Assembly (NCBI RefSeq): GCF_014203735.1
Contig: NZ_JACHJQ010000005.1
Span: 310,001-374,000, forward strand
Length of the DNA stretch: 64,000 nt
Direction: 5' to 3'
DNA from: Actinophytocola algeriensis
Lineage (GTDB): Bacteria; Actinomycetota; Actinomycetes; Mycobacteriales; Pseudonocardiaceae
The notes under the pieces are model-generated. The model searched no databases. It was not told where the DNA came from and was given only the letters and a program-made list of their open reading frames with translations. Both the position numbers and the translations under genes were made by a program. Below are positions 2,344-29,095 of this stretch, in pieces (position 1 is the stretch's first letter; each line of letters starts with the position of its first letter).

Positions 2344-3758
2344 GCGAGCCGACGCTGAGCAGGCACCTGGCGGCGTTCGCCGACGCCACGCGGCACCAGC
2401 CGCTGCCCGCCGAGGTCGCGGCGAGCGTGCGTGACCGGGTCCTCGACGTGCTCGGGCTGTGCCTCGCCGGGCGCGCGCTGGACACGAGCGCCGCGGCTCT
2501 GGCATACGTGCGCGAGCAGGGCGGTGCCGGGCAGGCGCACGTGATCGGTGACGCGGAACGGGTGCCCGCCGCACTCGCCGCGCTCGCCAACGGCGTGCTC
2601 GCGCACTCGCTGGACTACGACGACACGCACCTGCCGTCGGTGCTGCACCCCAGTGCGTCGGTGGTGCCCGCCGCGCTCGCCGCCGCGGAGGCGGCGGGCA
2701 CGGACGGGAAGGCGCTGCTGGCCGCGGTCGCCGCCGGGCTCGAGGTGTGCGTCCGCCTCGGCATGGCGGGCTACGACAAGGAGGCGAAGAACTCGACCTT
2801 CTTCGAGCACGGCCAGCACGCCACGTCGATCTGCGGTGCCATCGGCGGCGCGGTCGCGGCGGCGATGCTGCTGGGCCTGGACGAGGACGGCATCACCGAC
2901 GTCATCGGGGTGTCGGCGTCGATGGCCTCCGGGGTCATCGAGGCCAACCGCACCGGTGGCACGGTCAAGCGCCTGCACTGCGGCTGGGCCGCGCACGCCG
3001 CGGTGAGCGCCGCACAGCTCGTCAAGCACGGGTTCACCGGTCCGCCGACCGTCCTCGAAGGCCGGTTCGGCTTCTTCGAGGCGTTCCTGCGCGGCGAGTA
3101 CGACCCGGCCGAGATCACCGGCGGGCTCGGCGAGGAGTGGGCCGTGCCCGGCATCTTCTTCAAGCCCTACCCGGCCAACCACTTCACCCACACCATCGTC
3201 GACGCGGGCCGTGCGCTGCGTGAACAGGGCGTCGACCCGGACGAGGTCGAGGCGCTGACCGTCGGCGTGCCCGCACCGGTGGTCCGCACGGTCGGCGAGC
3301 CGATCGAGCGCAAGCGCAGGCCGGCCACCCCGTACGAGGCGCAGTTCAGCGGACCGTACGCGGCGGCGGTCGGCCTGTTCGGCGGGTCGGGGCTCGGCGC
3401 CGCCTACGCCGACTACGACACCGGGCTCCTTGCCGAGCCGCGCAGGCTGCGGCTGCTGTCGGTGACCGACGTGACCGCCGACGACGAGTGCACGGCGATC
3501 TTCCCGTACCAGTTCCCCGCCGTGCTGCGGGCGCGCACCGCGGACGGCAGGGAGTGGACCGCGAAGGCGCTCGTGAACCGCGGCGGCCCGCAGCGGCCGC
3601 TGTCCACCGACGAGCTGCGCGCGAAGTTCCGCGACAACGCCGATGGCGTGCTCACCCCCGAGGCGGTGCGGGCCGTCGAGGAGTGCGTCGCGGGGCTGGG
3701 CGGCGGCTCGCGCCCGGACGAGTTGCTGGCGCTCGTCCGACCGGAAGGAACGAGGTGA
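2340..3758 (+). CDS. MmgE/PrpD family protein
   Basis: A 472-residue protein matching the MmgE/PrpD family (2-methylcitrate dehydratase, cis-aconitate decarboxylase and relatives). Family-typical segments include SLDYDDTHLPSVLHPSASVVPAALA (two halves of the active-site region), a mid-protein GTVKRLHCGWAAHA and KPYPANHFTH. It likely dehydrates or decarboxylates a tricarboxylate-like acid in the cytoplasm. GTG 2340 overlaps the cyclase stop by four bases, so the two are translationally coupled. It is the last gene of this operon; a good Shine-Dalgarno stretch (GGAAGGAACGAGG) lies just before its stop. The exact reaction is not determined. Confidence 0.88.
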   Translation: MSEPTLSRHLAAFADATRHQPLPAEVAASVRDRVLDVLGLCLAGRALDTSAAALAYVREQGGAGQAHVIGDAERVPAALAALANGVLAHSLDYDDTHLPSVLHPSASVVPAALAAAEAAGTDGKALLAAVAAGLEVCVRLGMAGYDKEAKNSTFFEHGQHATSICGAIGGAVAAAMLLGLDEDGITDVIGVSASMASGVIEANRTGGTVKRLHCGWAAHAAVSAAQLVKHGFTGPPTVLEGRFGFFEAFLRGEYDPAEITGGLGEEWAVPGIFFKPYPANHFTHTIVDAGRALREQGVDPDEVEALTVGVPAPVVRTVGEPIERKRRPATPYEAQFSGPYAAAVGLFGGSGLGAAYADYDTGLLAEPRRLRLLSVTDVTADDECTAIFPYQFPAVLRARTADGREWTAKALVNRGGPQRPLSTDELRAKFRDNADGVLTPEAVRAVEECVAGLGGGSRPDELLALVRPEGTR

Positions 3759-3817
3759 TGCTGAGTACGCTCCTCTCCCCGGTTCGCGGCGCCGAAGGGC
3801 GGTGCCGGTGCACTGGC

Positions 3818-3830
3818 TATCCTCGGGTGG
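3818..3830 (+). promoter_or_regulatory. Candidate leaderless promoter (-10) for the MobA-MoaD gene
   Basis: TATCCT at 3818-3823 is followed six bases later by the GTG chosen as start, the spacing typical of leaderless actinobacterial mRNAs. No convincing -35 is visible. Confidence 0.35.
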
Positions 3831-4675
3831 TGGGCAAAGCGGCTGGTGTGGTGCTTGCGGGTGGTCGGTCCACCCGTATGGGGACGGCGAAGTCCGAGCT
3901 CGAGTGGCACGGTTCGACGTTGCTCTACCGGGCGGCCGCGGTGATGGCGCGGTCGGTCGACGGGCCGGTGGTCGTGGTCGCCGCGCCAGGGCAGGAGTTG
4001 CCCGAGCTGCCTGCCGGGGTCGAGGTGGTCGAGGATCCGGTCGATGGTCTGGGGCCCATGCAGGGCCTCGCCGCCGGGTTGGCCGCTGTGGCGGACCGCG
4101 CTGACGTGGCGTTCGTCTGTTCCACCGACCTGCCGTTCCTGCACCCCGCGTACGTGCGGCGGGTGCTGCGGGCACTCACCGACGACATCGACGTCGTGCT
4201 GCCCGTTGCGCGGGGGTTCCGGCAGCCGCTGGCGGCCGCCTACCAGACCAGGATCGCCGGGTTGGTCGCGAAGCTCCTCGCGGAGGGGAACCAGCGGCCG
4301 GGGATGATCTTCAAGCACTGCGACGTGACGCAGTTGGACGACGCGGCCCTGTTGGCCGACGCGGCGGTCGCGAAGTACGACCCGGAGCTGGACTCGGTGC
4401 TCAACGTCAACACGCCGGAGGACTACCGGGCCGCACGGGACCGGGAGCCACCCGAGGTCGTGGTCGAGCGGTTCGGGGCGCTGGCCAAGGGCGGCGGGCA
4501 CCGGCCCAAGGTCGTCCGGGCCGCGACGATCGGGCAGGCCGCCGAGGTGGTCGGGTTGACGTTGGACCGGCATGTCGTCGCCGCCCTGAACGGGGACCAG
4601 GTGACCAAGGACGGGCGGTTGCCCCTGGTCGCGGGGGACGCCGTCGCGTTCCTGTCGGCGGACGCAGGGGGATAG
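3830..4675 (+). CDS. MobA-like nucleotidyltransferase fused to a MoaD-like carrier
   Basis: A 281-residue protein in two parts. Residues 4-195 form a MobA/CoxL-type nucleotidyltransferase, with the nucleotide-binding signature LAGGRSTRMGTAK near the N-terminus. Residues 215-281 look like a ubiquitin-fold MoaD/ThiS sulfur carrier (VVAALNGDQV...LVAGDAVAFL) and end in the required Gly-Gly (280-281). MobA attaches a nucleotide to molybdopterin; MoaD donates sulfur to make it. I chose GTG 3830 because a TATCCT -10 box (3818-3823) would give a leaderless start there. An in-frame ATG at 3758, overlapping the PrpD stop behind a strong ribosome site, would add 24 unconserved-looking residues. It opens the W/Mo island. 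Confidence 0.85.
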   Translation: MGKAAGVVLAGGRSTRMGTAKSELEWHGSTLLYRAAAVMARSVDGPVVVVAAPGQELPELPAGVEVVEDPVDGLGPMQGLAAGLAAVADRADVAFVCSTDLPFLHPAYVRRVLRALTDDIDVVLPVARGFRQPLAAAYQTRIAGLVAKLLAEGNQRPGMIFKHCDVTQLDDAALLADAAVAKYDPELDSVLNVNTPEDYRAARDREPPEVVVERFGALAKGGGHRPKVVRAATIGQAAEVVGLTLDRHVVAALNGDQVTKDGRLPLVAGDAVAFLSADAGG

Positions 4676-4705
4676 GGCTCACGGGTAGCGCACACGGAAA
4701 GGGCA

Positions 4706-4718
4706 TACAGTCGACACA
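4706..4718 (+). promoter_or_regulatory. Candidate leaderless promoter for the AOR gene
   Basis: TACAGT at 4706-4711 lies six bases upstream of the ATG at 4718, with no Shine-Dalgarno sequence in between. This fits a leaderless transcript. Confidence 0.4.
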
Positions 4719-6514
4719 TGGCGCCAGGTGGTTTCTTCGGACAGGCGCTCGTCGTGGACGTGCACGCCGGGCACGCGACCGGCAGCCGGCTCACGCTGGA
4801 CGACCAGGTCCTGCGCGCGTACCTCGGCGGCGTCGGGCTCGGTACGTGGCTCATGCACCGGCTCGCTCCGCCCGGCGTGGATCCGCTCGCGCCGCAGGCG
4901 CCGCTCGCGTTCGTGTACTCGTCGCTCGTCGGGACTCCGCTGACCACGAGCGCCAAGTTCGCCGTGGTCGCCAAGTCGCCGTTGACCGGCCTGCTCACCG
5001 ACGCGCTCGCGTCCAGCCAGTTCGCCATCTCGGGCAAGCTGACCGGCCACGACGCCATCGTGATCCGGGGCCGCGCGGACGAGCTGTCCGTGCTGCTCAT
5101 CGACGGCGACGGGCCCCGGCTCGAACCGGCGCCCGACTTCGCGGGCCTGTCCGCGGCGGACGCGGAGACCAAGGCCAAGGAGCGGTTCGGCCGCGGCTGG
5201 CGCACCGCGGCGATCGGGCCCGCGGGGGAGCGGGGTGTGCGCTACGCGACCATCAGCCACGACGGCAGGCACGCCGGCCGAGGTGGTCTCGGTGCGGTGC
5301 TCGGCGCCAAGAACATCAAGGCCGTGCTGGTCAAGGCGGCCACGAAGGTGGGCGTCGCCGACCAGGCCGGTGTCCTCGCCGCCGCCAAGGACCTGCGCGG
5401 CAGGAGCTTCGGGCCCGCCACCGCCAAGTACCGGGAGCTGGGCACACTCGCGAACCTGCTGGCGTTCAACGCGGTCAGCACGCTCCCGACCCGCAACTTC
5501 ACCGCGGCCACCTTCGCCGAGGCGCCCCGGCTCGCCGCGGAGGAACTGCACGAGCTGCGCGGCGTGGCGCGCAACAGCTGCGCGTCCTGCTCCATCGGCT
5601 GCGAGCACATCTACGCCCGCAAGGGCGGCGGCAGCCAGCGGATGGAGTACGAGAACGTGTTCGCGCTCGGCCCGCTGTGCGGGGTGTCCGATCCGGACGA
5701 CGTGTTCGCCGCCAGCGCCCGCTGCGACGAGCTCGGCATCGACACCATCTCCGCCGGTGGCACCATCGCCTGGGCCATGGAGTGCGTCGAGCGCGGCCTG
5801 ATCGAGGAGCCGTGGCTCCGCTTCGGCGACGGCGCGGCCCTGCTCAGGGCCCTGGACGCGATCGGGAGCCGCGCGGCGGGGCTCGGCGAGCTGCTCGCCG
5901 AGGGCTCCCGGCGTGCCGCCGAGCGGGTCGGGCACGGTTCGCTCGACTTCGCCGCGCAGGTCAAAGGCCTGGAGATGCCCGGCTACGAACCACGCAGCCT
6001 CCAGTCGATGGCACTCGGCCTCGCCGTCAACGCGCGAGGCGCCGACCACAACCGCTCCGGCGCGTACGAGGCCGACCTGTCGGGTGACGTCGACCGCTTC
6101 CACGGCGGTGCCGCACACGTGGCCGCCGCGGTCCAGACCGAGGACAAGGCCGCGGTCATGGACTCGATGATCTTGTGCAAGTTCCTGCGCGGGGTGTTCG
6201 ACGACCCGTTCACCGAGTGGGCCCGGCTCCTGGCCCTGGTCACCGGCTGGGACCTGGACGCGGACGAGCTGCGTACCGCCGCCAGGCGGATCGTGCGGGC
6301 GAAACGTGCGTTCAACCTGCGCGAAGGCGCCACGGCCGCCGACGACACGCTGCCCGTGCGCATGCTCGAGACCCCCATCGAGCTCGGGTCCGGCCGCACC
6401 GCGGCGCTCACCGCGGACCGGCTCCGTTCGATGGTCGCGAGCTACTACGAAGCACGCGGTCTTGACCAGGACGGCAGGGTGTCCGCCACCGATCTGGCGG
6501 ATCTTTTCCTCTAG
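4718..6514 (+). CDS. Tungsten-type aldehyde ferredoxin oxidoreductase
   Basis: A 598-residue protein of the aldehyde:ferredoxin oxidoreductase (AOR/FOR) family, which oxidises aldehydes to acids with a tungsto-bispterin and one [4Fe-4S] cluster. The N-terminal domain has the family pattern from about residue 30 (YLGGVGLGTWLM) through GRGGLGAVLGAKNIKAV. The cluster ligands are present: C288-x2-C291-x3-C295 in NSCASCSIGCEH, and C487 in MILCKFLRG. The length matches the family (about 600). The neighbours are Mo/W cofactor genes, formate dehydrogenase and a tungstate transporter, so W use is well supported. No dedicated small ferredoxin follows; electrons may pass to the adjacent FdhA/FdhB module (inference). 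The aldehyde substrate is unknown; formaldehyde would fit the neighbours. Confidence 0.93.
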   Translation: MAPGGFFGQALVVDVHAGHATGSRLTLDDQVLRAYLGGVGLGTWLMHRLAPPGVDPLAPQAPLAFVYSSLVGTPLTTSAKFAVVAKSPLTGLLTDALASSQFAISGKLTGHDAIVIRGRADELSVLLIDGDGPRLEPAPDFAGLSAADAETKAKERFGRGWRTAAIGPAGERGVRYATISHDGRHAGRGGLGAVLGAKNIKAVLVKAATKVGVADQAGVLAAAKDLRGRSFGPATAKYRELGTLANLLAFNAVSTLPTRNFTAATFAEAPRLAAEELHELRGVARNSCASCSIGCEHIYARKGGGSQRMEYENVFALGPLCGVSDPDDVFAASARCDELGIDTISAGGTIAWAMECVERGLIEEPWLRFGDGAALLRALDAIGSRAAGLGELLAEGSRRAAERVGHGSLDFAAQVKGLEMPGYEPRSLQSMALGLAVNARGADHNRSGAYEADLSGDVDRFHGGAAHVAAAVQTEDKAAVMDSMILCKFLRGVFDDPFTEWARLLALVTGWDLDADELRTAARRIVRAKRAFNLREGATAADDTLPVRMLETPIELGSGRTAALTADRLRSMVASYYEARGLDQDGRVSATDLADLFL

Positions 6515-6551
6515 GCCCGGCGTCGGCCACACAAGCGGGGAGCCGTAACGG

Positions 6552-6590
6552 TATGCTGTATGCAATGCCAGGAGAGACGGAGCGACGATG
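6552..6590 (+). promoter_or_regulatory. Candidate promoter and ribosome site for fdhA
   Basis: A TATGCT -10-like box (6552-6557) is followed by GGAGAG (6571-6576), which lies about 11 bases before the ATG at 6588. The short gap after the AOR stop suggests fdhA can also be read with AOR. Confidence 0.3.
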
Positions 6591-9554
6591 ACGACTCTCG
6601 AGGAGCCGCACACGTCCACCAGGACGGTGACGGCCGAGATCGACGGCCGGTCGGTGACCGTGCCCGAGGGCACGACGATCTACGACGCGGCCAAACGGGC
6701 CGGTGTGGACATCCCCGTGCTGTGCCACGACGAGCGCTACGACCCGGTGGGCGTGTGCCGCATGTGCGTGGTCGACACCGGGGGCCGGGTGCTCGCCGCG
6801 GCGTGTGTGCGCCCGTGCGAGGACGGCATGACCGTCAAGACGGACACGGAGGAGATCCAGCAGAACCGGGCCACGCTGACCGAGCTGCTGATCTCCGACC
6901 AGCCGCCGCGCGCGGAGGACCCCAAGCAGACCAAGACCGGTGACAACCTGCTGCTGGAGCTGGCCGACCGGTTCGACGTGGCCAAGGAGACCACCGAGCT
7001 GCCGTGCGGCTCCGGGCGCGGTGTCGACCTGTCGAACCCGGTCATCGAGGTCAACCACGACGCCTGCATCCTGTGCGACCGCTGCGTCCGCGCGTGCGAC
7101 GACGTGCAGGGCAACGACGTCATCGGGCGGTCCGGCAAGGGCTACGAGACCCTCATCGCGTTCGACTTCAACGACCCGATGGGCCAGAGCTCGTGCGTGA
7201 CCTGCGGTGAGTGCGTGCAGGCCTGCCCGACCGGCGCGCTGACCAACAAGGCCATCAACAACATCCCGATCCAGCCGCGCGAGCAGCTCGACGCGGTCGA
7301 CAGCGTCTGCCCGTACTGCGGTGTCGGCTGCGCGCTCACCTACTACGTGGACCGCGAACGCGGCGCGATCTCCTTCGCCGAGGGCCGTGACCAGCCGGGC
7401 TCGAAGAGCCGCCTGTGCGTCAAGGGCCGGTACGGCTGGGACTACGCCGCCTCCCCGCAGCGCCTGACCAAGCCGTTGATCCGCATCGACTCCGCCTACC
7501 CGAAGGGCCCGCTGTCGGCGGACGTCCGCGGCGACGGCGGCAAGGGCAACGGCAACGACCGCGGCCGCGTCGAGGGCGGCAACCGCAGTGGCGGTGGTCG
7601 CGGCGACAAGAAGCTGGGCCGCGACGGCCGTCGCAAGCCCGGCGGGCTCGTCGACTACGACGAGGTCATGCCCTACTTCCGCGAGGCGACCTGGGAAGAG
7701 GCGCTGGACCTGGTGGCCAGCCGTCTCAAGGAGATCCACGCGACGCAGGGTCCCGGCGCGATCGCCGGGTTCGGCTCGGCGAAGTGCTCCAACGAGGAGG
7801 CCTACCTCTTCCAGAAGCTGATCCGCGTGGGCTTCGGCACCAACAACGTGGACCACTGCACGCGCCTGTGCCACGCGTCGTCGGTCGCCGCGCTGTTCGA
7901 GGGCGTCGGCTCCGGCGCGGTGTCCACCACCTACGGCGACGTCGTCAACGCCGAGGTCGTGATCATCACCGGCTCGAACCCGACCGCGAACCACCCGGTC
8001 GCCAGCTCGTTCTTCAAGCAGGCCCGCCGCAACGGCACGAAGATCGTGTACGTCGACCCGCGCGCCAGCACGGTCGCGGAGCACGCCGACTACCACTGCC
8101 AGGTCAAGCCGGGCACGGACGTGGCGTTCTACAACGGGATCATGCACGAGGTGATCCGCCTCGGCCTGATCGACCGCGACTTCATCCGCGAGCGCGTGTC
8201 CAACTACGACGAGCTGGCCCGCACGGTCGCGGACTACCCGCCGGAGCGGGCCGCGCAGATCACCGGCGTGGACGCCGACCTGATCCGCGAGGTCGCCCGC
8301 GTGTGGGGCGAGGCGAAGGCAGGCGTCATCTACTGGGGCATGGGCATCTCCCAGCACACCACCGGCACCGACAACGCCCGCTGCCTGATCGCGCTGTGCT
8401 CGATCACCGGCAACGTCGGCAAGCCCGGGGCCGGCCTGCACCCCCTGCGGGGCCAGAACAACGTGCAGGGCGCGTCCGACGCGGGCCTGATCCCGATGTT
8501 CTACCCGGACTACCAGGGGGTGGACGCCGGGGAGACGCGCGAGCGGTTCGAACAGGCGTGGGGCGCCAAGCTCGACCCCAACCGCGGGCTGACCGTCACC
8601 GAGATCATCGGGTCGGTGCTCAAGCCGGGTGGCGTGCGCGGCATGTACATGCTCGGCGAGAACCCGTTCCTGTCCGACCCGAACATCAACAAGGTCCGCA
8701 AGGCCCTCTCCACGCTGGACTTCCTGGTGGTGCAGGACATCTTCCTCACCGAGACGGCGGAGTTCGCGGACGTCATCCTGCCCGCGTCCTCGTACCTGGA
8801 GAAGGACGGCAGCTACACCAACACCGACCGGCGCGTGCAGCTCGGCCGCAAGGTGATGGACCCGCCCGGCGAGGCGCGGGTGGACTGGGAGATCGTGCAG
8901 GACATCGCGCAGCGCGTCGGGCTGGACTGGCGGTACACGTCACCGAGCGAGATCTTCGACGAGATGGTCGCGCTCATGCCGTCCTACGCGAACCTGAAGC
9001 ACGAGAACCTGGGCCTGTCCGGGAAGCTGTACCCCAACGACGACCCGGAGCACTCCGACGGCACGGTCGTGCTGTTCGACGAGCGGTTCAACACCGACGA
9101 CGGGCTCGCGCACCTCGTGCCAGCGCAGTGGTTGCCCGCCAGGGAGCTGCCGGACGCGGAGTACCCGCTGGTGCTCAACACCGGGCGGCTCCTCGAACAC
9201 TGGCACACCGGGTCGATGACCCGCCGCTCCTTCGCGCTGGACACGATCTCACCGATCGCCGAGGTGTACATGCACCCGAAGGACGCGGCCGACCGCGGTC
9301 TCGCACACGGTGAGCTGGTGCGGGTGCGGTCGCGCCGAGGGGTGATCGAGCTGCAGGTGCGGATCTCGCACCGCGAACAGCTGGGCAACTGCTTCATCCC
9401 GTTCCACTTCCGGGAGGCGGCGGCGAACCTGCTGACCATCGACGAGATCGACCCGGTCGGCAAGATCCCCGAGTACAAGTTCTGCGCGATCCAGGTGGAG
9501 GCACTGGGCGCGGAACACACGACCGACGTGGCCACGCTGGGAGCTGCGGAATGA
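6588..9554 (+). CDS. fdhA: Formate dehydrogenase catalytic subunit, NAD-type
   Basis: A 988-residue molybdo/tungsto-bis-MGD formate dehydrogenase. The modules run in order. An N-terminal [2Fe-2S] ferredoxin domain (CHDERYDPVGVCRMC...) comes first. Next is a NuoG-type His/Cys cluster region, then a two-cluster ferredoxin (CILCDRCVRAC and CVTCGECVQACP). The cluster CPYCGVGC...LCVKG precedes the catalytic domain. The catalytic position is Cys428 (CTRLCHASSV), so it is a Cys rather than a selenocysteine enzyme. The C-terminal molydop-binding domain (RLLEHWHTGSMTRR) is intact. It should oxidise formate to CO2, or run in reverse, and pass electrons to FdhB. An unusual Gly/Arg/Lys-rich insert occupies about residues 309-358. 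FdhD, needed for cofactor sulfuration, is not in the window. Confidence 0.95.
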   Translation: MTTLEEPHTSTRTVTAEIDGRSVTVPEGTTIYDAAKRAGVDIPVLCHDERYDPVGVCRMCVVDTGGRVLAAACVRPCEDGMTVKTDTEEIQQNRATLTELLISDQPPRAEDPKQTKTGDNLLLELADRFDVAKETTELPCGSGRGVDLSNPVIEVNHDACILCDRCVRACDDVQGNDVIGRSGKGYETLIAFDFNDPMGQSSCVTCGECVQACPTGALTNKAINNIPIQPREQLDAVDSVCPYCGVGCALTYYVDRERGAISFAEGRDQPGSKSRLCVKGRYGWDYAASPQRLTKPLIRIDSAYPKGPLSADVRGDGGKGNGNDRGRVEGGNRSGGGRGDKKLGRDGRRKPGGLVDYDEVMPYFREATWEEALDLVASRLKEIHATQGPGAIAGFGSAKCSNEEAYLFQKLIRVGFGTNNVDHCTRLCHASSVAALFEGVGSGAVSTTYGDVVNAEVVIITGSNPTANHPVASSFFKQARRNGTKIVYVDPRASTVAEHADYHCQVKPGTDVAFYNGIMHEVIRLGLIDRDFIRERVSNYDELARTVADYPPERAAQITGVDADLIREVARVWGEAKAGVIYWGMGISQHTTGTDNARCLIALCSITGNVGKPGAGLHPLRGQNNVQGASDAGLIPMFYPDYQGVDAGETRERFEQAWGAKLDPNRGLTVTEIIGSVLKPGGVRGMYMLGENPFLSDPNINKVRKALSTLDFLVVQDIFLTETAEFADVILPASSYLEKDGSYTNTDRRVQLGRKVMDPPGEARVDWEIVQDIAQRVGLDWRYTSPSEIFDEMVALMPSYANLKHENLGLSGKLYPNDDPEHSDGTVVLFDERFNTDDGLAHLVPAQWLPARELPDAEYPLVLNTGRLLEHWHTGSMTRRSFALDTISPIAEVYMHPKDAADRGLAHGELVRVRSRRGVIELQVRISHREQLGNCFIPFHFREAAANLLTIDEIDPVGKIPEYKFCAIQVEALGAEHTTDVATLGAAE

Positions 9555-9658
9555 CACCGAGTCCCAGGAGCAGAGCGAAGGAGCGGGCCTCGTCTGGACC
9601 GAGGAGCGCGCGCGGGCGCGCCGGCGCCGAGCACGCGACGAGGGAAGACGAGGTCTGA
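9551..9658 (+). CDS. Possible 35-residue mini-ORF between fdhA and fdhB
   Basis: An ATGA overlap with the fdhA stop opens a 35-codon frame rich in Arg, Ser and Ala. It ends four bases before the fdhB ATG. No motif is recognisable. Like the mini-ORFs at 1421 and 37370, it bridges a gap of about 100 bases inside an operon, which suggests translational coupling rather than a functional peptide. Confidence 0.28.
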   Translation: MTPSPRSRAKERASSGPRSARGRAGAEHATREDEV

Positions 9659-9676
9659 GCGGATGAGCGAAGCGAC
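9659..9676 (+). repeat. 18-base block at the fdhB start, copy 1
   Basis: GCGGATGAGCGAAGCGAC spans the ATG of fdhB and recurs exactly at the moeA start (11448-11465). Both proteins therefore begin MSEAT. It may be a shared translation-initiation element or a small duplication. Confidence 0.6.
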
Positions 9677-11420: not shown

Positions 11421-11447
11421 CCGCGGGAGCGAGCCAGAAGGCGCCGG

Positions 11448-11465
11448 GCGGATGAGCGAAGCGAC
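11448..11465 (+). repeat. 18-base block at the moeA start, copy 2
   Basis: This is an exact second copy of the block at 9659-9676, in the same register relative to the ATG (11452). Confidence 0.6.
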
Positions 11466-12690
11466 CAAGAAGACACAGCGGGAGTTCTTCACCACCCGCA
11501 CCGTTGCCGAGGCACTGGCAGGCTTTCGTCCGGACCACCGGGCGCCGGTCGAGACCGTGCCGCTCGCCGAGGCGCTCCACCGGGTGCCCGCCGCCGACAT
11601 CCCGTCGCCCCACGCCTTGCCGGGCTTCGTGAAGTCCACTGTGGATGGCTACGCGGTGCGGGCGGCGGACACCTACGGCTCCTCGGACGGCCTGCCGTCG
11701 TACCTGGACCTGCTGGGCGCGGTGCGGATGGGCGCGGCACCCGAGGTCACGGTGCGCCCCGGCGGGTGTGCCGCGATGCCGACCGGGGGAGTGCTGCCCG
11801 ACGGTGCGGACGCCGTGGTGATGGTCGAGTACACGGCCGAGACCATGCCCGGCACCATCGAAGTCACCCGTCCTGTGGCACCCGGTGGTGGGCTGGTGCG
11901 CGCCGACGAGGACGTTGCGGCCGGCGCGCCGCTCGTGCCAGCCGGTCGTCCGCTGCGCGCGCCGGATCTCGGGTTGCTCGCCGCGGCCGGGGTCACGTCG
12001 GTCGCGGTGCACGCCCGGCCCCGGGTCGCGATCATCTCCACCGGTGACGAGGTCGTGCCACCAGCCACAGTGGAGCTGTCGGCCGGGCAGGTGCGGGACG
12101 CGACCGCCTCCGCGCTGGCCGGGCTGGTCGCCGACGCGGGCGGCGAGCCGGTGATCGCGGGGATCGTCGGCGACGAGCCGGGTGCGTTGAAGGACAGGCT
12201 GACCGAGGTACTCGCTGATGCCGACCTGGTGGTCGTCTCGGCTGGCTCTTCGGTCGGAGCACGGGACGAGACCGCGGGCGCGGTCGCCGCGGTGGGTGCG
12301 GTCTGGTGCCACGGGCTCGCGATCAAGCCGGGCAAGCCGACGCTGCTCGCGGACTGCGGTGGCATCCCGTTGATCGGGCTGCCCGGCAACCCGCTGTCCG
12401 CGCTGGTCGTGTTCGGCCAGGTCGGGGTTCCACTGCTGTGGCGGCTGTCCGGGTGCGAGACCCCGCCACCGGTACCGAGCACCCGGGCACAGCTGTCCCG
12501 GGACCTGGCGTCGGCGGCGGGCCGGCTCGACGTGGTTCAGGTCCGGCTGTGGGACGGGGTCGCCGAGCCGGTGTTCGGTCCGTCCGCGCTGCTGTCCGTG
12601 CTCACCCGCGCCGACGGCTACCTGGTCGTGCCGGAACCGGCCACCGGGCTCGACGCGGGCACCGAGGTAGAGGTCATGCTGTACCGATGA
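11452..12690 (+). CDS. moeA: Molybdopterin molybdenumtransferase MoeA
   Basis: A 412-residue MoeA/gephyrin-E-type enzyme, which inserts molybdate (or tungstate) into adenylylated molybdopterin in the cytoplasm. Family motifs seen are STVDGYAVRAADT near residue 65, PTGGVLPDGADAVVMVE, the MoCF-binding domain IISTGDEVVPP, VSAGSSVGARDET and the GLPGNPLSALVVF loop. The length is normal. It follows fdhB by 31 bases and overlaps the next MoeA-type gene by four bases (ATGA). Its place in a W island suggests that it, or its partner, handles tungstate. The metal preference cannot be read from the sequence. Confidence 0.92.
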   Translation: MSEATKKTQREFFTTRTVAEALAGFRPDHRAPVETVPLAEALHRVPAADIPSPHALPGFVKSTVDGYAVRAADTYGSSDGLPSYLDLLGAVRMGAAPEVTVRPGGCAAMPTGGVLPDGADAVVMVEYTAETMPGTIEVTRPVAPGGGLVRADEDVAAGAPLVPAGRPLRAPDLGLLAAAGVTSVAVHARPRVAIISTGDEVVPPATVELSAGQVRDATASALAGLVADAGGEPVIAGIVGDEPGALKDRLTEVLADADLVVVSAGSSVGARDETAGAVAAVGAVWCHGLAIKPGKPTLLADCGGIPLIGLPGNPLSALVVFGQVGVPLLWRLSGCETPPPVPSTRAQLSRDLASAAGRLDVVQVRLWDGVAEPVFGPSALLSVLTRADGYLVVPEPATGLDAGTEVEVMLYR

Positions 12691-14585
12691 ACAGTCCGTT
12701 CGTGTCCGACGTCCCCGCCGCGGCGGCCCACACCGCCTGGCGGGAGGCGCGCGCCGCGGCTGGTTGCCCCGCCAGGGTCGCGACCGTGCGGGTGCCGGTC
12801 GGCGAGGCCGTCGGCAGGGTGACCGCCGAACCCGTGTGGGCGAAGCGTTCCGCACCCGCGTTCGACTCGTCCGGCATGGACGGGATCGCGGTCCGCGCGC
12901 AGGACACGGTCGGCGCGGCGGAGACCACTCCGGTGCTGCTCACCGACTTCGAGGTCGTCGACACCGGCGACCCGCTGCCCGCGGGCTACGACGCCGTGAT
13001 CATGCGCGAACACGTGCACCGGACCGGCGAGCAGGCCGAGATCCGGGCCGCCGTCCCGCCCTACCAGCACGTCCGCTCGATCGGTGAGGACATCAGCGCG
13101 GCCGAACTGCTGCTGCCGGAAGGACACCGCCTGCGCCCGGTCGACGTGGCGGCCTGCGCGGCCGCGGGGGTGGTCGAACTGGCCGTGCGCCGAGCGCCGG
13201 TCGTGGCGATCATCCCGACCGGTGACGAGATTCGCCCGTTGGGTGCCACTCTCGAACCGGGCGACATCCTGGACACCAACTCGCTGATGCTCGCCGCCCA
13301 GGCCCGCGAGGCAGGCTGCGCGGCCGACGTCACCGAGATCGTGCGGGACGACCCGGACGCCATCACCGCGGCCCTCCGCGCCGCCGCGGCCGGTGCCGAC
13401 CTGGTCCTGCTGATCGCCGGTTCCAGCGCGGGCCGTGACGACTACACCGCCCGCGTGGTCGCGGGCGCGGGCACGCTGGCGGTCCACGGCGTGGCCGTCC
13501 GCCCAGGACACCCCGTCGTGCTCGGCACCGTCGACCGGACGCCGGTGGTCGGTGTCCCCGGCTACCCGGTGTCCGCCGCTCTCACGTTCGACATCTTCGC
13601 GGCCCCGGTGCTCGCGGAGCTGGAAGGCGCCGCCCCGCGCGAACGGCCGTCCACCACGGCACACCTCGCGCGGAAGCTCCCGTCGGCGATCGGCATGGAC
13701 GACTGGGTCCGCGTCCGCCTCGGCCGGGTGGGGGACCGCGTCGTCGCGACACCACTGCCCCGTGGTGCGGGCGTGCTGACCTCGCTGGTGCGTGCGGACG
13801 GGCTGCTGGTCGTGCCGTCCGGAGTGGAGGGTCACCACGCCGGAGCGGAGGTCCGGGTGGAGCTGCTGCGCGGACTGGCGGAGATCGACCGCACCGTCGT
13901 CGCGATCGGTTCGCACGACCTGGTGCTCGACCTCGCCGCCTCGGCACTGCGGGCCGACAACCCGCTCATCACCCTCGCGTCGTCGAACGTCGGCTCGCTC
14001 GGCGGCCTGGTCGCACTACGGGACGGCCTGTGCCACCTCGCGGGCTCACACCTGCTCGACCCGGCGACCGGCGAGTACACGCTGCCCTATGTGGACAAGC
14101 TGCTCGGCGATGGCTTCGCGGTGATCCGCCTGGTCCACCGCGACCAGGGCCTGATCGTCGCGCCAGGCAACCCGCTGGAGCTGGCCAAGATCGACGACCT
14201 CACCCGGCAGGGCCTCCGGTACGTCAACCGCCAGCGCGGCGCGGGCACCCGTGCGCTCCTCGACCACGAGCTGGCGCGGCGGGGCATGGATCCCGCCGAC
14301 ATCCCCGGCTACGCCCGCGAGGAGCACACGCACCTGGCCGTGGCCGCCGCGGTGTCCTCGGGCCGGGCCGACGCCGGACTCGGGATCCTGGCCGCCGCCC
14401 GTGCGTTCGGTCTCGACTTCGTCCCCGTCGCGCAGGAGCCGTACGACCTCGTCCTGCGCACCGACAGCCTCGCCGACGACCGGCTCGCCCCGCTGTGGGA
14501 CCTGCTCGGCCGCACCGGCTTCCACGACGAGGTCGAGGCGCTCGGTGGCTACTCGTGCGCGGAGACCGGCAGGCGGATCCGCTGA
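12687..14585 (+). CDS. MoeA fused to a C-terminal periplasmic-binding-protein-like domain
   Basis: A 632-residue fusion. Residues 1-400 are a second MoeA (SSGMDGIAVRAQDT, IIPTGDEIRPLG, IAGSSAGRDDYTARV, GVPGYPVSAALTF). Residues about 415-632 are a PBP-like/LysR-substrate-type fold (IGSHDLVLDLAASAL, VNRQRGAGTRALLDHEL, AAAVSSGRADAGLGILAAA, PYDLVLRTDSL), the kind that binds molybdate or tungstate in regulatory proteins. MoeA-PBP fusions occur in bacteria and archaea. I infer that the binding domain delivers or senses the oxyanion for insertion. The start overlaps moeA by four bases. It converges with the regulator at 14591, which carries the same kind of domain. Confidence 0.9.
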   Translation: MNSPFVSDVPAAAAHTAWREARAAAGCPARVATVRVPVGEAVGRVTAEPVWAKRSAPAFDSSGMDGIAVRAQDTVGAAETTPVLLTDFEVVDTGDPLPAGYDAVIMREHVHRTGEQAEIRAAVPPYQHVRSIGEDISAAELLLPEGHRLRPVDVAACAAAGVVELAVRRAPVVAIIPTGDEIRPLGATLEPGDILDTNSLMLAAQAREAGCAADVTEIVRDDPDAITAALRAAAAGADLVLLIAGSSAGRDDYTARVVAGAGTLAVHGVAVRPGHPVVLGTVDRTPVVGVPGYPVSAALTFDIFAAPVLAELEGAAPRERPSTTAHLARKLPSAIGMDDWVRVRLGRVGDRVVATPLPRGAGVLTSLVRADGLLVVPSGVEGHHAGAEVRVELLRGLAEIDRTVVAIGSHDLVLDLAASALRADNPLITLASSNVGSLGGLVALRDGLCHLAGSHLLDPATGEYTLPYVDKLLGDGFAVIRLVHRDQGLIVAPGNPLELAKIDDLTRQGLRYVNRQRGAGTRALLDHELARRGMDPADIPGYAREEHTHLAVAAAVSSGRADAGLGILAAARAFGLDFVPVAQEPYDLVLRTDSLADDRLAPLWDLLGRTGFHDEVEALGGYSCAETGRRIR

Positions 14586-14590
14586 CGGTC

Positions 14591-15508
14591 CTACCCGTCC
14601 AGTCTTTCCAGCGTGCCGACCTCGGTGAGGTCGTAGCCGTCCATGTCCGCCACGGCGGCACGGGTCGCCGGGTCGCGCATGGCGGTCATGAGCGACCGCA
14701 CCGCTCCCAACGCCGTTCCGGCGAGCACGATGTCGTAGGACTCCCAGGTCAGCGGCACGAAGTCGAGACCGAGGTCGGTCGCGGTCGCGCGCAGACCCAG
14801 CGCGGCGTCGGCGATCCCGGCGGCGACGGCGAGCCCGGTCTCGAGGTGGGAGTCGAGCTCGGGCCCGTGCACGGTGTGCGGGTCGATACCCGCGCCGATG
14901 AGGAGCTGTTCGAGGAGCACGCGGGTGCCCGCACCCGCCTGGCGCCGCGCGACGAGCTTGCCGGTGAGGTCGGCGACCGACCGGATGCCGCTCTGGTCGC
15001 CGTGCGGGACGAGCAGGCCTTGCTGGCGGCGCCAGAGGTGGAGCAGATGGGGGTCCTTGCCCCGCAGCAAGGCCCGGGCGAACGGGCTGTTGTAGACACC
15101 GGTGTGGTGGCGCAGGTGTATGGCCGCGCCGTCCGCGTCCCCGCGCGCGAGGGCACGCAGACCCTGGAAGCTGCCGCGGCTGCCGACCGGGACCACCGCT
15201 GGCGTGGTGCGGTCGAGCAGGATCTGCAGCGCGGGGTCGTCGCTCCCGGCGAGCCGGAACACCCGGTCGGCTTCGAGCAGCCGGGCCGCGGCGAGCACAC
15301 CGTCCGTGGCGACACGGGCCCGGCGCCGGTCCGCGACGGTGATCACGTCCGCATCGGCGAGATGGCGGTACGCACGGACGACCGTCGACGAGGTCGCCCC
15401 CAGCTCGTCGGCGTACGTGCGGACGGCGGGCAGTTCTGCGCCGACGGCCAGCTCACCCGACCGGATCCGGCGGGCGAGCTCGGTGGCGACTTCCAGGTAG
15501 CGCGTCAT
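14591..15508 (-). CDS. GntR-type regulator with molybdate/tungstate-binding-like domain
   Basis: A 305-residue protein. Residues 1-70 form a GntR winged helix (LARRIRSGELAVGAELPAVRTYADELGATSSTVVRAYRHL, quoted here as two halves of one helix-turn-helix). Residues 85-305 are a PBP-like domain closely resembling the tail of the MoeA fusion (RQAGAGTRVLLEQLL, AAGIADAALGLRATA, SYDIVLAGTALG). The start is the ATG at 15508, where family homology begins. An open frame continues further upstream but would run through the divergent promoter. It is divergent from tupA and likely senses intracellular tungstate or molybdate and controls the transporter, and perhaps itself. Confidence 0.86.
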   Translation of the reverse strand: MTRYLEVATELARRIRSGELAVGAELPAVRTYADELGATSSTVVRAYRHLADADVITVADRRRARVATDGVLAAARLLEADRVFRLAGSDDPALQILLDRTTPAVVPVGSRGSFQGLRALARGDADGAAIHLRHHTGVYNSPFARALLRGKDPHLLHLWRRQQGLLVPHGDQSGIRSVADLTGKLVARRQAGAGTRVLLEQLLIGAGIDPHTVHGPELDSHLETGLAVAAGIADAALGLRATATDLGLDFVPLTWESYDIVLAGTALGAVRSLMTAMRDPATRAAVADMDGYDLTEVGTLERLDG

Positions 15509-15538
15509 TTTTGTTGTGCCCTGAACCTCACGTGTCAC

Positions 15539-15564
15539 TTCGGTCAGCCGAACAGCGGTAATCT
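15539..15564 (+). promoter_or_regulatory. Candidate operator and -10 box in the tupA/regulator intergenic region
   Basis: TTCGGtcagCCGAA (15539-15552) is a perfect 5-base inverted repeat with a 4-base spacer. It lies just upstream of TAATCT (15559-15564), a good -10 for tupA. GAAGGAG at 15587-15593 is the tupA ribosome site. An operator here could block the polymerase on tupA. The pairing with the GntR-type protein is inference. Confidence 0.4.
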
Positions 15565-15600
15565 TGTGCCGATCTGTGAGCCTACAGAAGGAGTCAGCGG

Positions 15601-16458
15601 ATGCGCCCGGTTCGTCTTGCGACTGCCTGCGTGGCCCTGCTGCTGTCGCTCGCTGCGTGCGGTGGGACCGATCAGGCGGCCGGATCCTCGGCCGAGAAGT
15701 CCTTGATCCTCGCCACCACCACGAGCACACAGGACTCGGGACTGCTCGACGAGTTGTTGCCCGCCTTCACCGCCGACACCGGCTGGCAGGTCAAACCACT
15801 GGCCGTGGGCAGCGGACAGGCCATCGAGCTCGGCCGCCGCGGCGAGGCCGACGTCCTCCTCGTGCACTCCCCGGCAGCCGAGGAGGAGTTCGTCGCCGAG
15901 GGCACCGCTGGCCCGCGGCGGCTGGTGATGCACAACGACTTCGTGCTCGTCGGGCCGTCGGCCGATCCGGCCGGGATCCGCGGTGTACCGGCGACGGAGG
16001 CCATGCGGAAGATCGCCACCACACAGGCGGGCTTCGTCTCGCGCGGCGACGAGTCCGGCACCCACGCCCGTGAGGAGCAGCTGTGGGACCAGAACCGGAT
16101 CGTCCCTTCCGGACAGTGGTACCGCGCCACCGGCCAGGGCATGGGCGCCACGTTGCGGGTGGCGAGCGAGACGTCGGCCTACACGTTGACCGACCGGGCG
16201 ACCTACCTGTCCCAGAAGGGAAACCTGGACCTCGAGGTGCTGAACGAGGGCGACCAGGCGCTGCTCAACATCTACCACGTCATCGAGATGACGAAGCGCG
16301 CAGGCGACGGGGTCCAGCCGGACGGTGCGAAGGCGTTCGCCGACTGGATCACCGGTCCACGCGCGCAGGACCTGATCGGCGAGTTCGGCGCGTCGGCAGG
16401 CGGTGCGCGCCTGTTCGTGCCGGATGCCGGCAAGGACGAGTCGGCGCTGGGGAACTGA
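15601..16458 (+). CDS. tupA: Tungstate ABC transporter substrate-binding lipoprotein
   Basis: A 285-residue exported lipoprotein with the signal and lipobox LLSLAAC (Cys20). The mature protein opens with the TupA hallmark TTTSTQDSGLLDELL (about residues 38-52), which distinguishes tungstate-binding TupA/WtpA-like proteins from ModA. Other conserved blocks are GSGQAIELGRRGEADVLLVHSP and FVSRGDESGTHAREEQLW. It captures tungstate outside the membrane and hands it to TupB. It is followed four bases later by tupB. The AOR and formate dehydrogenase genes upstream are the expected consumers. Confidence 0.92.
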   Translation: MRPVRLATACVALLLSLAACGGTDQAAGSSAEKSLILATTTSTQDSGLLDELLPAFTADTGWQVKPLAVGSGQAIELGRRGEADVLLVHSPAAEEEFVAEGTAGPRRLVMHNDFVLVGPSADPAGIRGVPATEAMRKIATTQAGFVSRGDESGTHAREEQLWDQNRIVPSGQWYRATGQGMGATLRVASETSAYTLTDRATYLSQKGNLDLEVLNEGDQALLNIYHVIEMTKRAGDGVQPDGAKAFADWITGPRAQDLIGEFGASAGGARLFVPDAGKDESALGN

Positions 16459-16462
16459 CGAC

Positions 16463-17164
16463 GTGGACGTGCTCGGCGACGGTCTGCTCGAGGCGTTGCG
16501 GCTGCTGGTGACCGGGGACGAGGACACCTGGGCGATCACCGCGCTCACCCTCCAGGTCTCCCTCAGCGCCACCGTGGTCGCGTTCCTGCTCGGCGCCCCG
16601 GTGGGCACCGCGCTCGCCCTCGGCCGGTTCCGGGGGCGGCGGGTGCTGCTGGCGATCGCGAACACCGGCATGGGGCTGCCGCCCGTGGTGGTCGGGTTGT
16701 TCGTCACGGTGCTGTTGTGGCGCGCGGGCCCGCTCGGCGCGTTCGGGCTGCTCTACACCCCGACCGCGATGGTGATCGCGCAGGCGGCGATCGCCGTGCC
16801 CGTCGTGACCGCGCTGACCGCGACGGCGTTGCAGCAGGTCGACCCGGACTTCCTGCTGCAGATGCGCGGCTTGGGCGCCACGAGGCTCCGAGCCCTCGGC
16901 GCGCTGCTGGCGGAGGCCAGGCTGCCGCTGCTGGCGGCGGCCATGGCCGGGTTCGGCGCGGTGGTCAGCGAGGTCGGGGCCGCGCAGATGGTCGGCGGCA
17001 ACCTGGCAGGTGAGACCCGCGTGCTCACCACCGCCGCGGTGCTCGCGACCAGTCGCGGCCAGTTCGCACTGGCCATCGCGTTCGGCCTCGTCCTGCTCGG
17101 CCTCGCGTTCGTCGTCAACCTCGCCGTCACGCTCGCACAACACCGGCGGCAGGTGGCGAGATGA
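16463..17164 (+). CDS. tupB: Tungstate ABC transporter permease
   Basis: A 233-residue integral membrane protein with about five or six hydrophobic helices. It contains the BPD_transp_1 coupling loop EAA-like motif (LGATRLRALGALLAEARLPLL). The GTG at 16463 is chosen because it lies just after the tupA stop and gives a family-length protein. It forms the channel between TupA and the TupC ATPase, whose start overlaps its stop by four bases. Confidence 0.9.
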   Translation: MDVLGDGLLEALRLLVTGDEDTWAITALTLQVSLSATVVAFLLGAPVGTALALGRFRGRRVLLAIANTGMGLPPVVVGLFVTVLLWRAGPLGAFGLLYTPTAMVIAQAAIAVPVVTALTATALQQVDPDFLLQMRGLGATRLRALGALLAEARLPLLAAAMAGFGAVVSEVGAAQMVGGNLAGETRVLTTAAVLATSRGQFALAIAFGLVLLGLAFVVNLAVTLAQHRRQVAR

Positions 17165-18216
17165 GCATCGGCTGCCGTGACCTGCGGGTCACCGCGCACG
17201 GGCGGGAACTCGTGTCCGTGCGGGCGCTGGACGTGCCCGCGGGGGAGACGCTCGCGGTCCTCGGCCCCAACGGCGCCGGGAAGTCGACGCTGCTCCGTGC
17301 GCTCGCGCACCTGGGCGCCGCGGCCAGGTCCGGGTCCATCCTGCTCGACGGCCAGGACGCCACCACCGCCCAGCTCCGCCAGGCCGTCGCCGCGGTGCTG
17401 CAACGTCCCGTGCTGCAACGCAAGTCCGTGCTCGACAACGCCGCGGCAGGCCTGCGGCTGCGCGGCGTGCGACGCGGAGAAGCCCGCCGTCGAGCCGAGC
17501 CGTGGCTCGACGCGCTCGGCGTCGCACACCTCGCCGACCGCCAGGCCCACACGCTCTCCGGGGGTGAGTCGCAGCGCGTCGCCATCGCGCGGGCCCTCGC
17601 CGTCGCGCCACGCGTGTTGCTGCTCGACGAGCCGTTCACCGGCCTCGACGCCACCACCCGCACGGACCTGCTCGCCGACCTCCGCGCCGCACTGAACGAA
17701 CAGGACGCCGCGGTTCTGCTCGTCACGCACGACCGCGAGGAAGCACGCGCACTCGCACAACGCACGGCCTTGCTGGTGGGTGGGGAGATCAGGCAGATCG
17801 GCGCCACCGCCGACGTCCTCGACGCACCGACCGACCTCGAGTGCGCGACCCTGCTGGGTTTCACCACCCACCTGCCGCCCGCGCTCACCGGTCACCAGTC
17901 GATGCTGGTCGCCCGCCCCGAACGCTGCCGTCCGCTCACCGGCTCCACCCCGCCACCGCCGGACACGGTCGTGGTCGACGGCGTCCTGCGCCGAGTGGTA
18001 CCCCTCGGCGGCGCACACCGCCTCGACGTCGACACCACCTCGGGCACCGTCACCGCGGTGACCACCGCGGACGTCCCGACGTCACCGGGACACCCGATCC
18101 GCATCGCGACAGCCAGGGAACACCTTCGCGAGTGCGTGCCTCCGGTACCTGGACGGGTTGTGGTGGGTGCGGCCGGACCTGGAGCCGCGGTCAGGTGGCC
18201 GACTCGCCCGTCCTGA
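17161..18216 (+). CDS. tupC: Tungstate ABC transporter ATPase
   Basis: A 351-residue ABC ATPase: Walker A GPNGAGKSTLL (about 38-48), signature LSGGESQRVAIARAL, Walker B VLLLDEPFTGLD and the switch His in LLVTHDREEA. The last 110 residues form a C-terminal extension (HQSMLVARPERCRPL...VDGVLRRVVPLGGAHRLDVD) resembling the regulatory TOBE-like domains of oxyanion importers. It powers tungstate uptake with TupB. Its 3' end overlaps the convergent membrane-protein gene by 26 bases. Confidence 0.91.
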   Translation: MSIGCRDLRVTAHGRELVSVRALDVPAGETLAVLGPNGAGKSTLLRALAHLGAAARSGSILLDGQDATTAQLRQAVAAVLQRPVLQRKSVLDNAAAGLRLRGVRRGEARRRAEPWLDALGVAHLADRQAHTLSGGESQRVAIARALAVAPRVLLLDEPFTGLDATTRTDLLADLRAALNEQDAAVLLVTHDREEARALAQRTALLVGGEIRQIGATADVLDAPTDLECATLLGFTTHLPPALTGHQSMLVARPERCRPLTGSTPPPPDTVVVDGVLRRVVPLGGAHRLDVDTTSGTVTAVTTADVPTSPGHPIRIATAREHLRECVPPVPGRVVVGAAGPGAAVRWPTRPS

Positions 18217-28779: not shown

Positions 28780-29095
28780 GGACCGGTACCGGCCGACGGT
28801 TCGTCCACTGTCCTTTGTGTACAGACCGCTGATGGCGTTGCCAGTGATCTCGGCCTCACGAGCGAAGGCCGGCGTCAGCCGAACCAGATCCCTGGTCTAA
28901 CGTGAGGCGAGAGTCCGGGTCGGCGGCGCGGCGTGCTCCACCGGCCGGCGGGACGACCGTCCGCCATGCGTCTGTCCTGGGGGCATCGACGCCCCTTGGT
29001 CGCCGCAGGAACAGTTCGTACGCCGGCACAGCAGCCGACACAGCCGCCCATTTCCCGCGCCGGTGCACCGGCGCTCGACCACGTCAGGTTGCCGC
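28780..29095. other. Intergenic region, MerR to SulP
   Basis: About 316 bases without a supportable gene. It probably holds the SulP promoter, but I could not pick a convincing -35/-10 pair or a MerR-type dyad. An in-frame GTG at 29063 could extend SulP into this region by 11 residues. Confidence 0.4.

Follow-up and report, generated by a model that had tools for sequence, protein, structure and literature searches.

A predicted tungsten-use module of aldehyde oxidoreductase, formate dehydrogenase and tungstate importer genes in Actinophytocola algeriensis and other actinomycetes

Known tungsten systems and the Actinophytocola locus

Tungsten enzymes of aerobes are already known, the aldehyde oxidoreductase (AOR) of Brevibacillus massiliensis (PMC9424855) and the formate dehydrogenase (FDH) FDH1 of Methylorubrum extorquens (MeFDH1; PMC13197769) being characterised examples, and so are the ThiS-like protein WorX encoded beside AOR and the MoeA-PBP protein accompanying the tungstate-binding protein TupA. 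Here, a window of 64,000 nucleotides from Actinophytocola algeriensis (Pseudonocardiaceae; assembly GCF_014203735.1, contig NZ_JACHJQ010000005.1, positions 310,001 to 374,000) was analysed, which encodes a MobA-WorX fusion, an AOR, the FDH subunits FdhA and FdhB, two MoeA proteins, a GntR-PBP regulator and the importer TupABC (Table 1). This gene set is real, conserved and under purifying selection, and from sequence comparison it probably represents a dedicated tungsten-use module of two separable transcription units with two tungsten enzymes. A preliminary description of the window, drawn from the letters alone, had listed an AOR with four cluster cysteines, an FDH, a nucleotidyltransferase-carrier fusion, two MoeA proteins, a regulator and a TupABC with the signature TTTSTQDSG; all of these were found again by family scans, while its surprise at a tungsten AOR in an aerobe is lessened by the two characterised enzymes of Brevibacillus and Methylorubrum.

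Each piece of the island resembles something known. The M. extorquens system (PDB 7e5z, 7vw6; cluster moeA1-mobB-tupBCA, PMC13197769) shares with it the alpha plus beta architecture, the cysteine ligand, the aerobic host and the tungstate transporter linked to MoeA; it differs in having MobB and a MoeA1 with Arg291 and Ala312, and no AOR is named in that cluster, whereas the island has MobA fused to WorX and two MoeA proteins, one canonical and one carrying PBP. The class I WORs, with the large subunit WorL alone and with or without a ThiS-like WorX (Brevibacillus massiliensis WOR, PfAOR; PMC13328260 and PMC9424855), have in common with the island the single large subunit, the cluster cysteines, the second-shell residues and a nearby WorX; in the island, however, WorX is fused to MobA, FdhAB lie downstream, the local signature HNRSGAYE follows the catalytic histidine of AOR, and Gly448 stands where many AORs have Tyr452. 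Of the named AORs in the plasmid collection, that of Thermomicrobium roseum (NC_011961) comes closest from outside Actinomycetota, at 49% identity. It is the sister of the island type in the tree and is immediately preceded by a MoaD/ThiS gene, but no MobA, FDH or MoeA is annotated within 12 kb of it. The archaeal-type MoeA-PBP with TupA (PMC11733289) is matched in the tandem MoeA genes, one of them with the PBP domain, and in the linkage to TupA; that study points to bacteria living in anoxic habitats, in contrast to the actinomycetes here, in which the PBP family is also found on a GntR regulator. The same neighbourhood of MoaD strictly adjacent to AOR was read as tungsten-cofactor supply in 2006, in a study where a fusion to MobA goes unmentioned (PMC1779556).

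The 4,064 WorL sequences have been divided into classes I-V, and in the main text of that classification actinobacteria or actinomycetes do not occur and the term formate dehydrogenase occurs once, in the references, while its supplement lists sequences and may hold such ones (PMC13328260). Among open-licence papers, no title or abstract describing this operon in actinomycetes was found; nor were the actinobacterial combination, the MobA-WorX fusion and the pair of GntR-PBP regulator and operator found described. Actinomycetospora chiangmaiensis, another member of Pseudonocardiaceae, provides a contrast to the present case and no support for it. Its FDHs are selenocysteine (Sec) enzymes, tungstate was without effect on its formate, and the words aldehyde ferredoxin are absent from the text (PMC7176365).

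Conservation, phylogeny and co-occurrence

An AOR-based scan of genome contigs confirmed 97 relatives, and 80 loci were kept, all of which bear actinobacterial taxon names in the record titles (Pseudonocardia, Nonomuraea, Kibdelosporangium, Amycolatopsis, Herbidospora, Saccharopolyspora, Streptomyces, Nocardioides), metagenome bins such as Solirubrobacterales and Nitriliruptoraceae included. The gene for MobA-WorX lies directly 5' of AOR in 74 of the 75 loci with room for it (five being too short). FdhA comes next, no more than 2.5 kb 3' of AOR, in 60/66 (14 too short), and MoeA1 and MoeA2 continue unbroken in 43 of the 52 loci that have FdhB and a further 4.2 kb of sequence behind it. Clustering of the neighbourhoods in the 81 sequences with called open reading frames (ORFs) gave TupA (14), TupB (13) and TupC (12), the next cluster having 8 members, and two clusters of 10 sequences were minus-strand ORFs across FdhB, as judged by their representatives, so that no gene beyond the six operon genes recurs as these do. 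The dN/dS values were 0.12-0.20 in 12 comparisons of AOR, FdhA and FdhB with four relatives. With these dN/dS values, and with the same gene order repeated in tens of loci from actinobacteria, the island is not a product of chance.

The occurrence of the same island in other Pseudonocardiales, which the preliminary description had put forward for checking, was established by both the locus scan and a genome search of the family, in which 30 of 297 genomes gave an AOR match, 29 of them of the island type; in the genus, four of the six members listed have AOR. With any AFOR_C match at E<=0.001 counted, the order gave 9/298 genomes and the phylum 95/396. In the AOR tree (IQ-TREE, 70 rows), the island-type rows form one clade with support of 100/100, T. 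roseum is their sister (100/99) on a long branch that drew a warning from the tool, and the other actinobacterial AORs fall outside; rows of Streptosporangiaceae and Streptomycetaceae nest within the Pseudonocardiaceae part. The pairwise distances are correlated at 0.93-0.97 among the six operon genes (48 rows) and at 0.93-0.94 between AOR and TupA/TupB (12 rows), high values that shared ancestry alone would give.

Co-occurrence was followed in 50 genomes for FdhA and 51 for TupB, comprising 28 genomes with an island-type AOR (29 with the own genome), G698 with an AOR of only 35%, 19 AOR-less members of the family, and G035 and G023, which belong to a different family in the order and have AORs at 70-72%. 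FdhA at E<=1e-150 was detected in 26/28 of the island-type AOR genomes, the two without being G791 and G814, and in none of G698 (0/1), the AOR-less genomes (0/19) and G035 with G023 (0/2). TupB above 100 bits was present in 20/29, 0/1, 0/19 and 0/2 of the same groups, with sub-threshold matches in G274 (51 bits) and G035 (54 bits). Linkage alone does not explain the co-occurrence: TupB is often far from AOR, the two being on different contigs in G725, G747 and G815, and a single contig of G891 carries AOR, FdhA and TupB at 1.9, 5.2 and 6.1 Mb.

Enzymes, cofactor genes and predicted tungstate import

The genes were called by GC-frame and family scans (Pfam, NCBIfam, PRK) and the parts span 3818-18216 of the window, on contig 5 of the 9.73-Mb assembly of the own genome. 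The preliminary extent of 3758-18216 holds at its end; at its other side, the start of mobA was moved from ATG 3758 to GTG 3827, because relatives begin near there and a TATCCT box lies just upstream, and FdhB is added to the earlier list. A TANNNT motif stands 12-32 bases from the end of the extracted mobA upstream stretch in 76/81 sequences, with 47 matches at the two commonest offsets (raw counts). The six plus-strand genes from mobA-worX to moeA2 (3827-14585) are separated by at most 108 bases or overlap by 4, as in one operon, and tupABC are divergent from the reverse-strand gntR-PBP.

Table 1. Features of the putative tungsten-use island (positions in the window)
Feature	Description	Position	Strand	Basis
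-10-like box	TATCCT directly before the mobA-worX start; putative leaderless-type promoter	3818..3823	+	
mobA-worX	MobA-like guanylyltransferase fused to MoaD/ThiS-like sulfur carrier ending Gly-Gly	3827..4675	+	family scans, fold match
aor	tungsten AOR family (WorL), no WorS partner	4718..6514	+	AFOR_N 2.4e-55, AFOR_C 5e-103
fdhA	formate dehydrogenase alpha, Cys428-His429, NuoG-like N-terminal Fe-S region	6588..9554	+	TIGR01591 783 bits (cut-off 666)
fdhB	fused NuoE-NuoF NAD-type diaphorase subunit	9663..11420	+	family scans; best solved relative M. extorquens FDH beta
moeA1	plain MoeA with canonical KPGK and GNPLS pocket	11452..12690	+	family scans, alignment
moeA2	MoeA with C-terminal PBP_like domain (archaeal-type, predicted tungstate insertase)	12687..14585	+	PRK14498 696 bits (cut-off 534)
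gntR-PBP	regulator, GntR winged helix and PBP_like	14591..15508	-	GntR 8.9e-11, PBP_like 1.1e-45
palindrome	TCTG-N8-CAGA, candidate operator between gntR and tupA	15573..15588	.	conservation across loci
tupA	predicted tungstate-binding lipoprotein	15601..16458	+	family scans, motifs
tupB	permease	16463..17164	+	family scans; start fixed by comparison with L008
tupC	ATPase	17161..18216	+	family scans

The nearest relative of FdhAB is a tungsten enzyme of proven nature: the best solved relative of FdhA is FDH1 of M. extorquens (1000 bits; next 594), and that of FdhB is the beta subunit of the same FDH, by a narrow margin (363 bits; next 331), chain B of the electron-bifurcating AOR 9mqx also matching FdhB. 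The architecture is that of MeFDH1, with the NuoG-like N-terminus in FdhA and the NuoE-NuoF fusion in FdhB. Cys428 and His429 of FdhA are present in 69/69 alignment rows, the ligand thus being Cys and not Sec. Its N-terminal cysteines are each kept in 68 or 69 of the 69, except Cys140 (49/69); such row counts, here and below, include a few genomes twice (the window as L001 and L084, L064 = L154, L076 = L149). Among the plasmid-borne FdhA relatives listed there is one Nonomuraea record, the rest being from Methylobacterium, Azospirillum and other Proteobacteria, at 48-53% identity; the Methylobacterium FdhA are 49-50% identical to that of the island, a figure that is not for MeFDH1 itself. A second FDH-like gene of the own genome (contig 5:548256-551232) adjoins an fdhD about 220 kb from the island. 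Pseudonocardia nigra (L024) has two island-type FdhA-FdhB pairs (FdhA 84% and 81%; L099, L108) on contigs other than that of AOR, whose neighbourhood is without them. FdhA is found only in pieces beside AOR in L052 and L054, as a pseudogene or through an assembly error, and Pseudonocardia MH-G8 yielded only FdhA fragments, perhaps through an assembly gap.

The AOR retains the cluster cysteines Cys288, Cys291, Cys295 and Cys487 and the residues Thr243, Tyr423 and His444 in 89/89 island-type rows and Glu312 in 84/89; in the window, Thr243, Glu312, Tyr423 and His444 correspond to Thr243, Glu313, Tyr427 and His448 of PfAOR, all four second-shell residues being present. Its best solved relatives are the Pyrococcus AOR 1aor (304 bits), followed by 9mqx (280 bits) and the formaldehyde oxidoreductase 1b25 (239 bits). 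Gly448 in HNRSGAYE is found in 89/89 rows, as against Tyr in 15 of 33 other AORs. Class I WORs are without a WorS, WorN or WorABC neighbour; gene calls and family scans revealed neither WorS nor WorN nor any ferredoxin gene among the operon genes, but FdhB has NuoE/NuoF modules like those of WorB and WorC.

In five AOR rows (four genomes: L064 = L154, L070, L098, L153) the catalytic Glu312 is replaced by Gln, which occurs in no other of the 122 rows, Glu being kept in 33/33 non-island AORs; three of the five also carry His or Asn in place of the preceding Tyr. It is mainly from this lineage that AORs without island-type FdhAB come. The rows form one clade on the AOR tree and therefore count as one event. 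The lineage is without island-type FdhA in G300 = G035, G301 and G023, which were searched, and in L098 as far as its 4 kb reach, and G035 and G023 are also without TupB above 100 bits. The change of Glu312 in a lineage lacking FdhAB suggests, without proving it, that AOR needs its partners; the counter-cases are L075 (a 2.3-Mb bin), G791 and G814, which keep AOR without a full FdhA, the AOR of L075 retaining Glu. In L064 (9118-12759), the gene immediately after AOR appears from its N-terminus to be selD-like, and an FDH-like ORF lies a few kb further.

As to the cofactor genes, the MobA part was recognised as NTP_transf_3 (1.7e-31), and the WorX tail, the C-terminal 75 amino acids, is ThiS-like and ends in GG in 87/87 rows, in a single ORF with MobA in 85/85. 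Pfam ThiS was detected in 20/20 members scanned (best 1.1e-6), the window's own match (0.0027, 18.6 bits) being under the gathering score of 22.5; the AF2 model of WorX (pLDDT 89) had as its first fold match a mycobacterial molybdopterin-synthase chain (TM 0.70, E 4.7e-4), the sole one at E<=0.001. MoeA2-PBP has His276 and Ser297 in 58/58 rows, and MoeA-PBP proteins accompany TupA in 86% of cases according to Megrian et al. (PMC11733289), who proposed that they insert tungsten. The earlier word "complete" does not suit the island: two FdhD copies lie elsewhere in the genome, outside the window and one of them beside the second FDH, and MoaA, MoaC, MoaE, MogA and MobB were not identified among the island genes by family scans confined to the island, no genome search having been aimed at MoaA/C/E or MobB.

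In the importer, TupA carries TTTSTQDSG from residue 39, and its Arg148...Thr154, taken as the Arg and Thr of the second site, are spaced as Arg118/Thr124 of published TupA, mapped by spacing alone; TTTST occurs in 16 and RGDxSGT in 13 of 17 TupA ORFs, and the solved TupA 3lr1 matches the window protein at 207 bits. Regulator and MoeA2 have PBP domains of one family, with 39% identity between them. A fold search with the regulator gave PBP-type and LysR-type matches of low TM-score (about 0.3-0.57), ModA and the TupA-like 3muq being two among many. In the 22 tupA upstream stretches read for it, the exact palindrome TCTG-N8-CAGA was found in 8 of the 9 sequences with an adjacent divergent gntR, the window included and L008 being one base off; Nonomuraea accounts for five of the nine. 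In 1.89 Mb of loci the exact palindrome turns up 13 times, of which 8 are the gntR sites just named, while in the window alone the single match is at chance level (expected 0.54), so that its weight rests on conservation. In Saccharopolyspora soli (L038 = G888), which is TupB-less, WtpA (254 bits) and WtpB (260 bits), both under the NCBIfam cut-offs, with an ABC ATPase gene (6064-8945) replace TupABC beside a GntR-PBP gene of the same kind, and the palindrome is again exact between gntR and wtpA. It was not found beside gntR in L007, L032, L080 and L003.

Within 250 bases upstream of mobA, the exact palindrome was found in 0/81 sequences, and a shared regulon of importer and enzyme operon was rejected on this ground. 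The palindrome being present at gntR-tupA and absent upstream of mobA, the two units seem to be separately controlled, the importer probably being the sole target of the regulator. RNA regulation of the island was likewise rejected, since the Rfam scan of the window gave no family at gathering score and hence no Moco-type riboswitch, and ARAGORN gave no tRNA in the window, i.e., no island at a tRNA site. A tungstate importer between MoeA1 and MoeA2 was considered in L045, where the ORF by its look (no family search) resembles an ABC exporter instead; the same place in L030 held nothing informative. Such ABC-exporter-like genes, adjoining AOR or lying between the two MoeA genes, occur in L020, L023, L024, L031 and L045 (several Pseudonocardia and a related bin). 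The window further contains a MmgE/PrpD-family gene (1884-3758) that ends just before the operon, and that formed no recurrent cluster beside the operon when neighbourhoods were clustered, a SARP-type regulator (BTAD, NB-ARC, TPR; 22721-25729) and a SulP-type sulfate permease with a STAS domain (29063-30598), possibly an unspecific oxyanion importer.

Metal, mechanism and rival explanations

Tungsten is the metal best supported by these comparisons. The dedicated tungsten metabolism claimed in the preliminary description is well supported, though not proven, because the closest relative of FdhAB is an FDH proven to use tungsten, TupB tracks AOR across the family, often from other contigs, and WtpABC substitutes for TupABC in one relative. 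Several observations weigh against it. MoeA1 has Lys295 and Ser316 in 62/62 rows, a canonical molybdenum-type pocket, and neither MoeA1 nor MoeA2 has the Arg291 and Ala312 which mark the oxyanion pocket of the tungsten-selective MoeA1 of M. extorquens (PMC13197769), the positions having been matched by motif and the equal 21-residue spacing, not by alignment. The own genome encodes further molybdopterin oxidoreductases elsewhere, and the TupB model, which does match in E. coli, found in it no second permease of its kind, ModB-like ones included, at E<=1e-12 (no search was aimed at ModABC), so TupABC may double as the molybdate route. The NCBIfam equivalog cut-offs are not reached by TupA (215 of 400 bits), TupB (172 of 320 bits) and MobA. 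Nine of the 29 island-type AOR genomes are without TupB above 100 bits, one of them having WtpABC; as AOR-less genomes the 19 listed of 267 were taken, which are no random draw; and the 13 loci in which tup does not adjoin this regulator have no exact palindrome upstream of tupA (0/13, with one loose match in L080). The pocket, the permease search, the other oxidoreductases and the cut-offs would all fit a molybdenum or mixed-metal system, with TupABC as a general oxyanion importer and enzymes that take molybdenum. Such a system is nevertheless unlikely, as the AOR family is described as tungsten-specific (PMC6147048), FdhAB are nearest to a tungsten FDH, and TupB above 100 bits is absent from all 19 AOR-less relatives, a point that counts if these use molybdenum, while the replacement by WtpABC argues in the same direction, though WtpABC is reported to carry molybdate too (PMC11733289).

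On the reading of a tungsten-use module, TupABC would import tungstate, and the divergent GntR-PBP would sense intracellular tungstate or a cofactor intermediate through its MoeA2-family PBP domain and act at TCTG-N8-CAGA before tupA. MoeA2-PBP may capture tungstate and insert it into the pterin, with MoeA1 helping or working in parallel; MobA would make the bis-molybdopterin guanine dinucleotide form needed by FDH, and the WorX tail, in one chain with it, may be the sulfur carrier for cofactor synthesis or loading. The cofactor would be delivered to two soluble enzymes, the single-subunit AOR, predicted to oxidise aldehydes to acids with electrons going probably to ferredoxin (the operon has no dedicated carrier), and FdhAB, which by homology would couple formate oxidation to NAD+. 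Actinophytocola itself is presumably aerobic in lifestyle, and many of the related species that have the gene set usually count as aerobes. A broader proposal, that aerobic actinomycetes of several families have a tungsten C1/aldehyde module, in which AOR is functionally coupled to an MeFDH1-like FDH (aldehyde or formaldehyde to formate to CO2, or shared electrons) and fed by a cofactor line with two novelties, the MobA-WorX fusion, which would tie sulfur carriage to nucleotide attachment, and a GntR regulator with a tungstate-sensing PBP domain of the MoeA type, is rather doubtful; the one lineage seen without the FDH no longer keeps the catalytic Glu of AOR.

How the two enzymes might work together can be pictured in two ways. 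The action of AOR and FdhAB in sequence, as a tungsten-only C1 route from formaldehyde or small aldehydes through formate to CO2 and NADH, is a possible though rather doubtful explanation: the two are neighbours and co-occur, and the lineage with AOR but without island-type FdhAB is the sole one with the change of Glu312 to Gln; however, AOR is nearer to PfAOR than to the formaldehyde oxidoreductase and its substrate is not readable from the sequence, the changed rows represent a single event, and L075, G791 and G814 behave otherwise, as described. The docking of AOR on FdhAB, with electrons passing via the Fe-S chain and the diaphorase to NAD+ or CO2, as in bifurcating WORs of WorL with WorABC, appears improbable. 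The module types named for WorA, WorB and WorC (class definition in PMC13328260) recur in the N-terminus of FdhA and in FdhB, chain B of 9mqx matches FdhB, and in gaps of no more than 108 bases the operon offers no WorS, WorN or ferredoxin gene; against this, some genomes keep AOR without island-type FdhA, AOR and FdhA are unlinked in G891 and P. nigra, and FdhB matches best the beta subunit of an FDH whose solved entries include no AOR partner. An obligate AOR-FdhAB complex is weakened by the same AOR genomes without island-type FdhA and by the unlinked copies. A mobile cassette with little physiological role would agree with the patchy distribution in 29/297 family genomes and with the nesting of Streptosporangiaceae and Streptomycetaceae in the Pseudonocardiaceae part of the tree, but it is very improbable in view of dN/dS of 0.12-0.20, the retention of parts when unlinked, and the lack of any mobile-element family among the island proteins scanned.

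If the tungsten-use module is what it appears to be, tungsten use would be spread through culturable soil actinomycetes, several of them with culture-collection numbers by their record titles (Nonomuraea, Kibdelosporangium, Pseudonocardia), and these would provide AORs and formate dehydrogenases from aerobes, with the late cofactor genes in the same operon. The bacteria concerned would then have a metal requirement that standard media may fail to meet.

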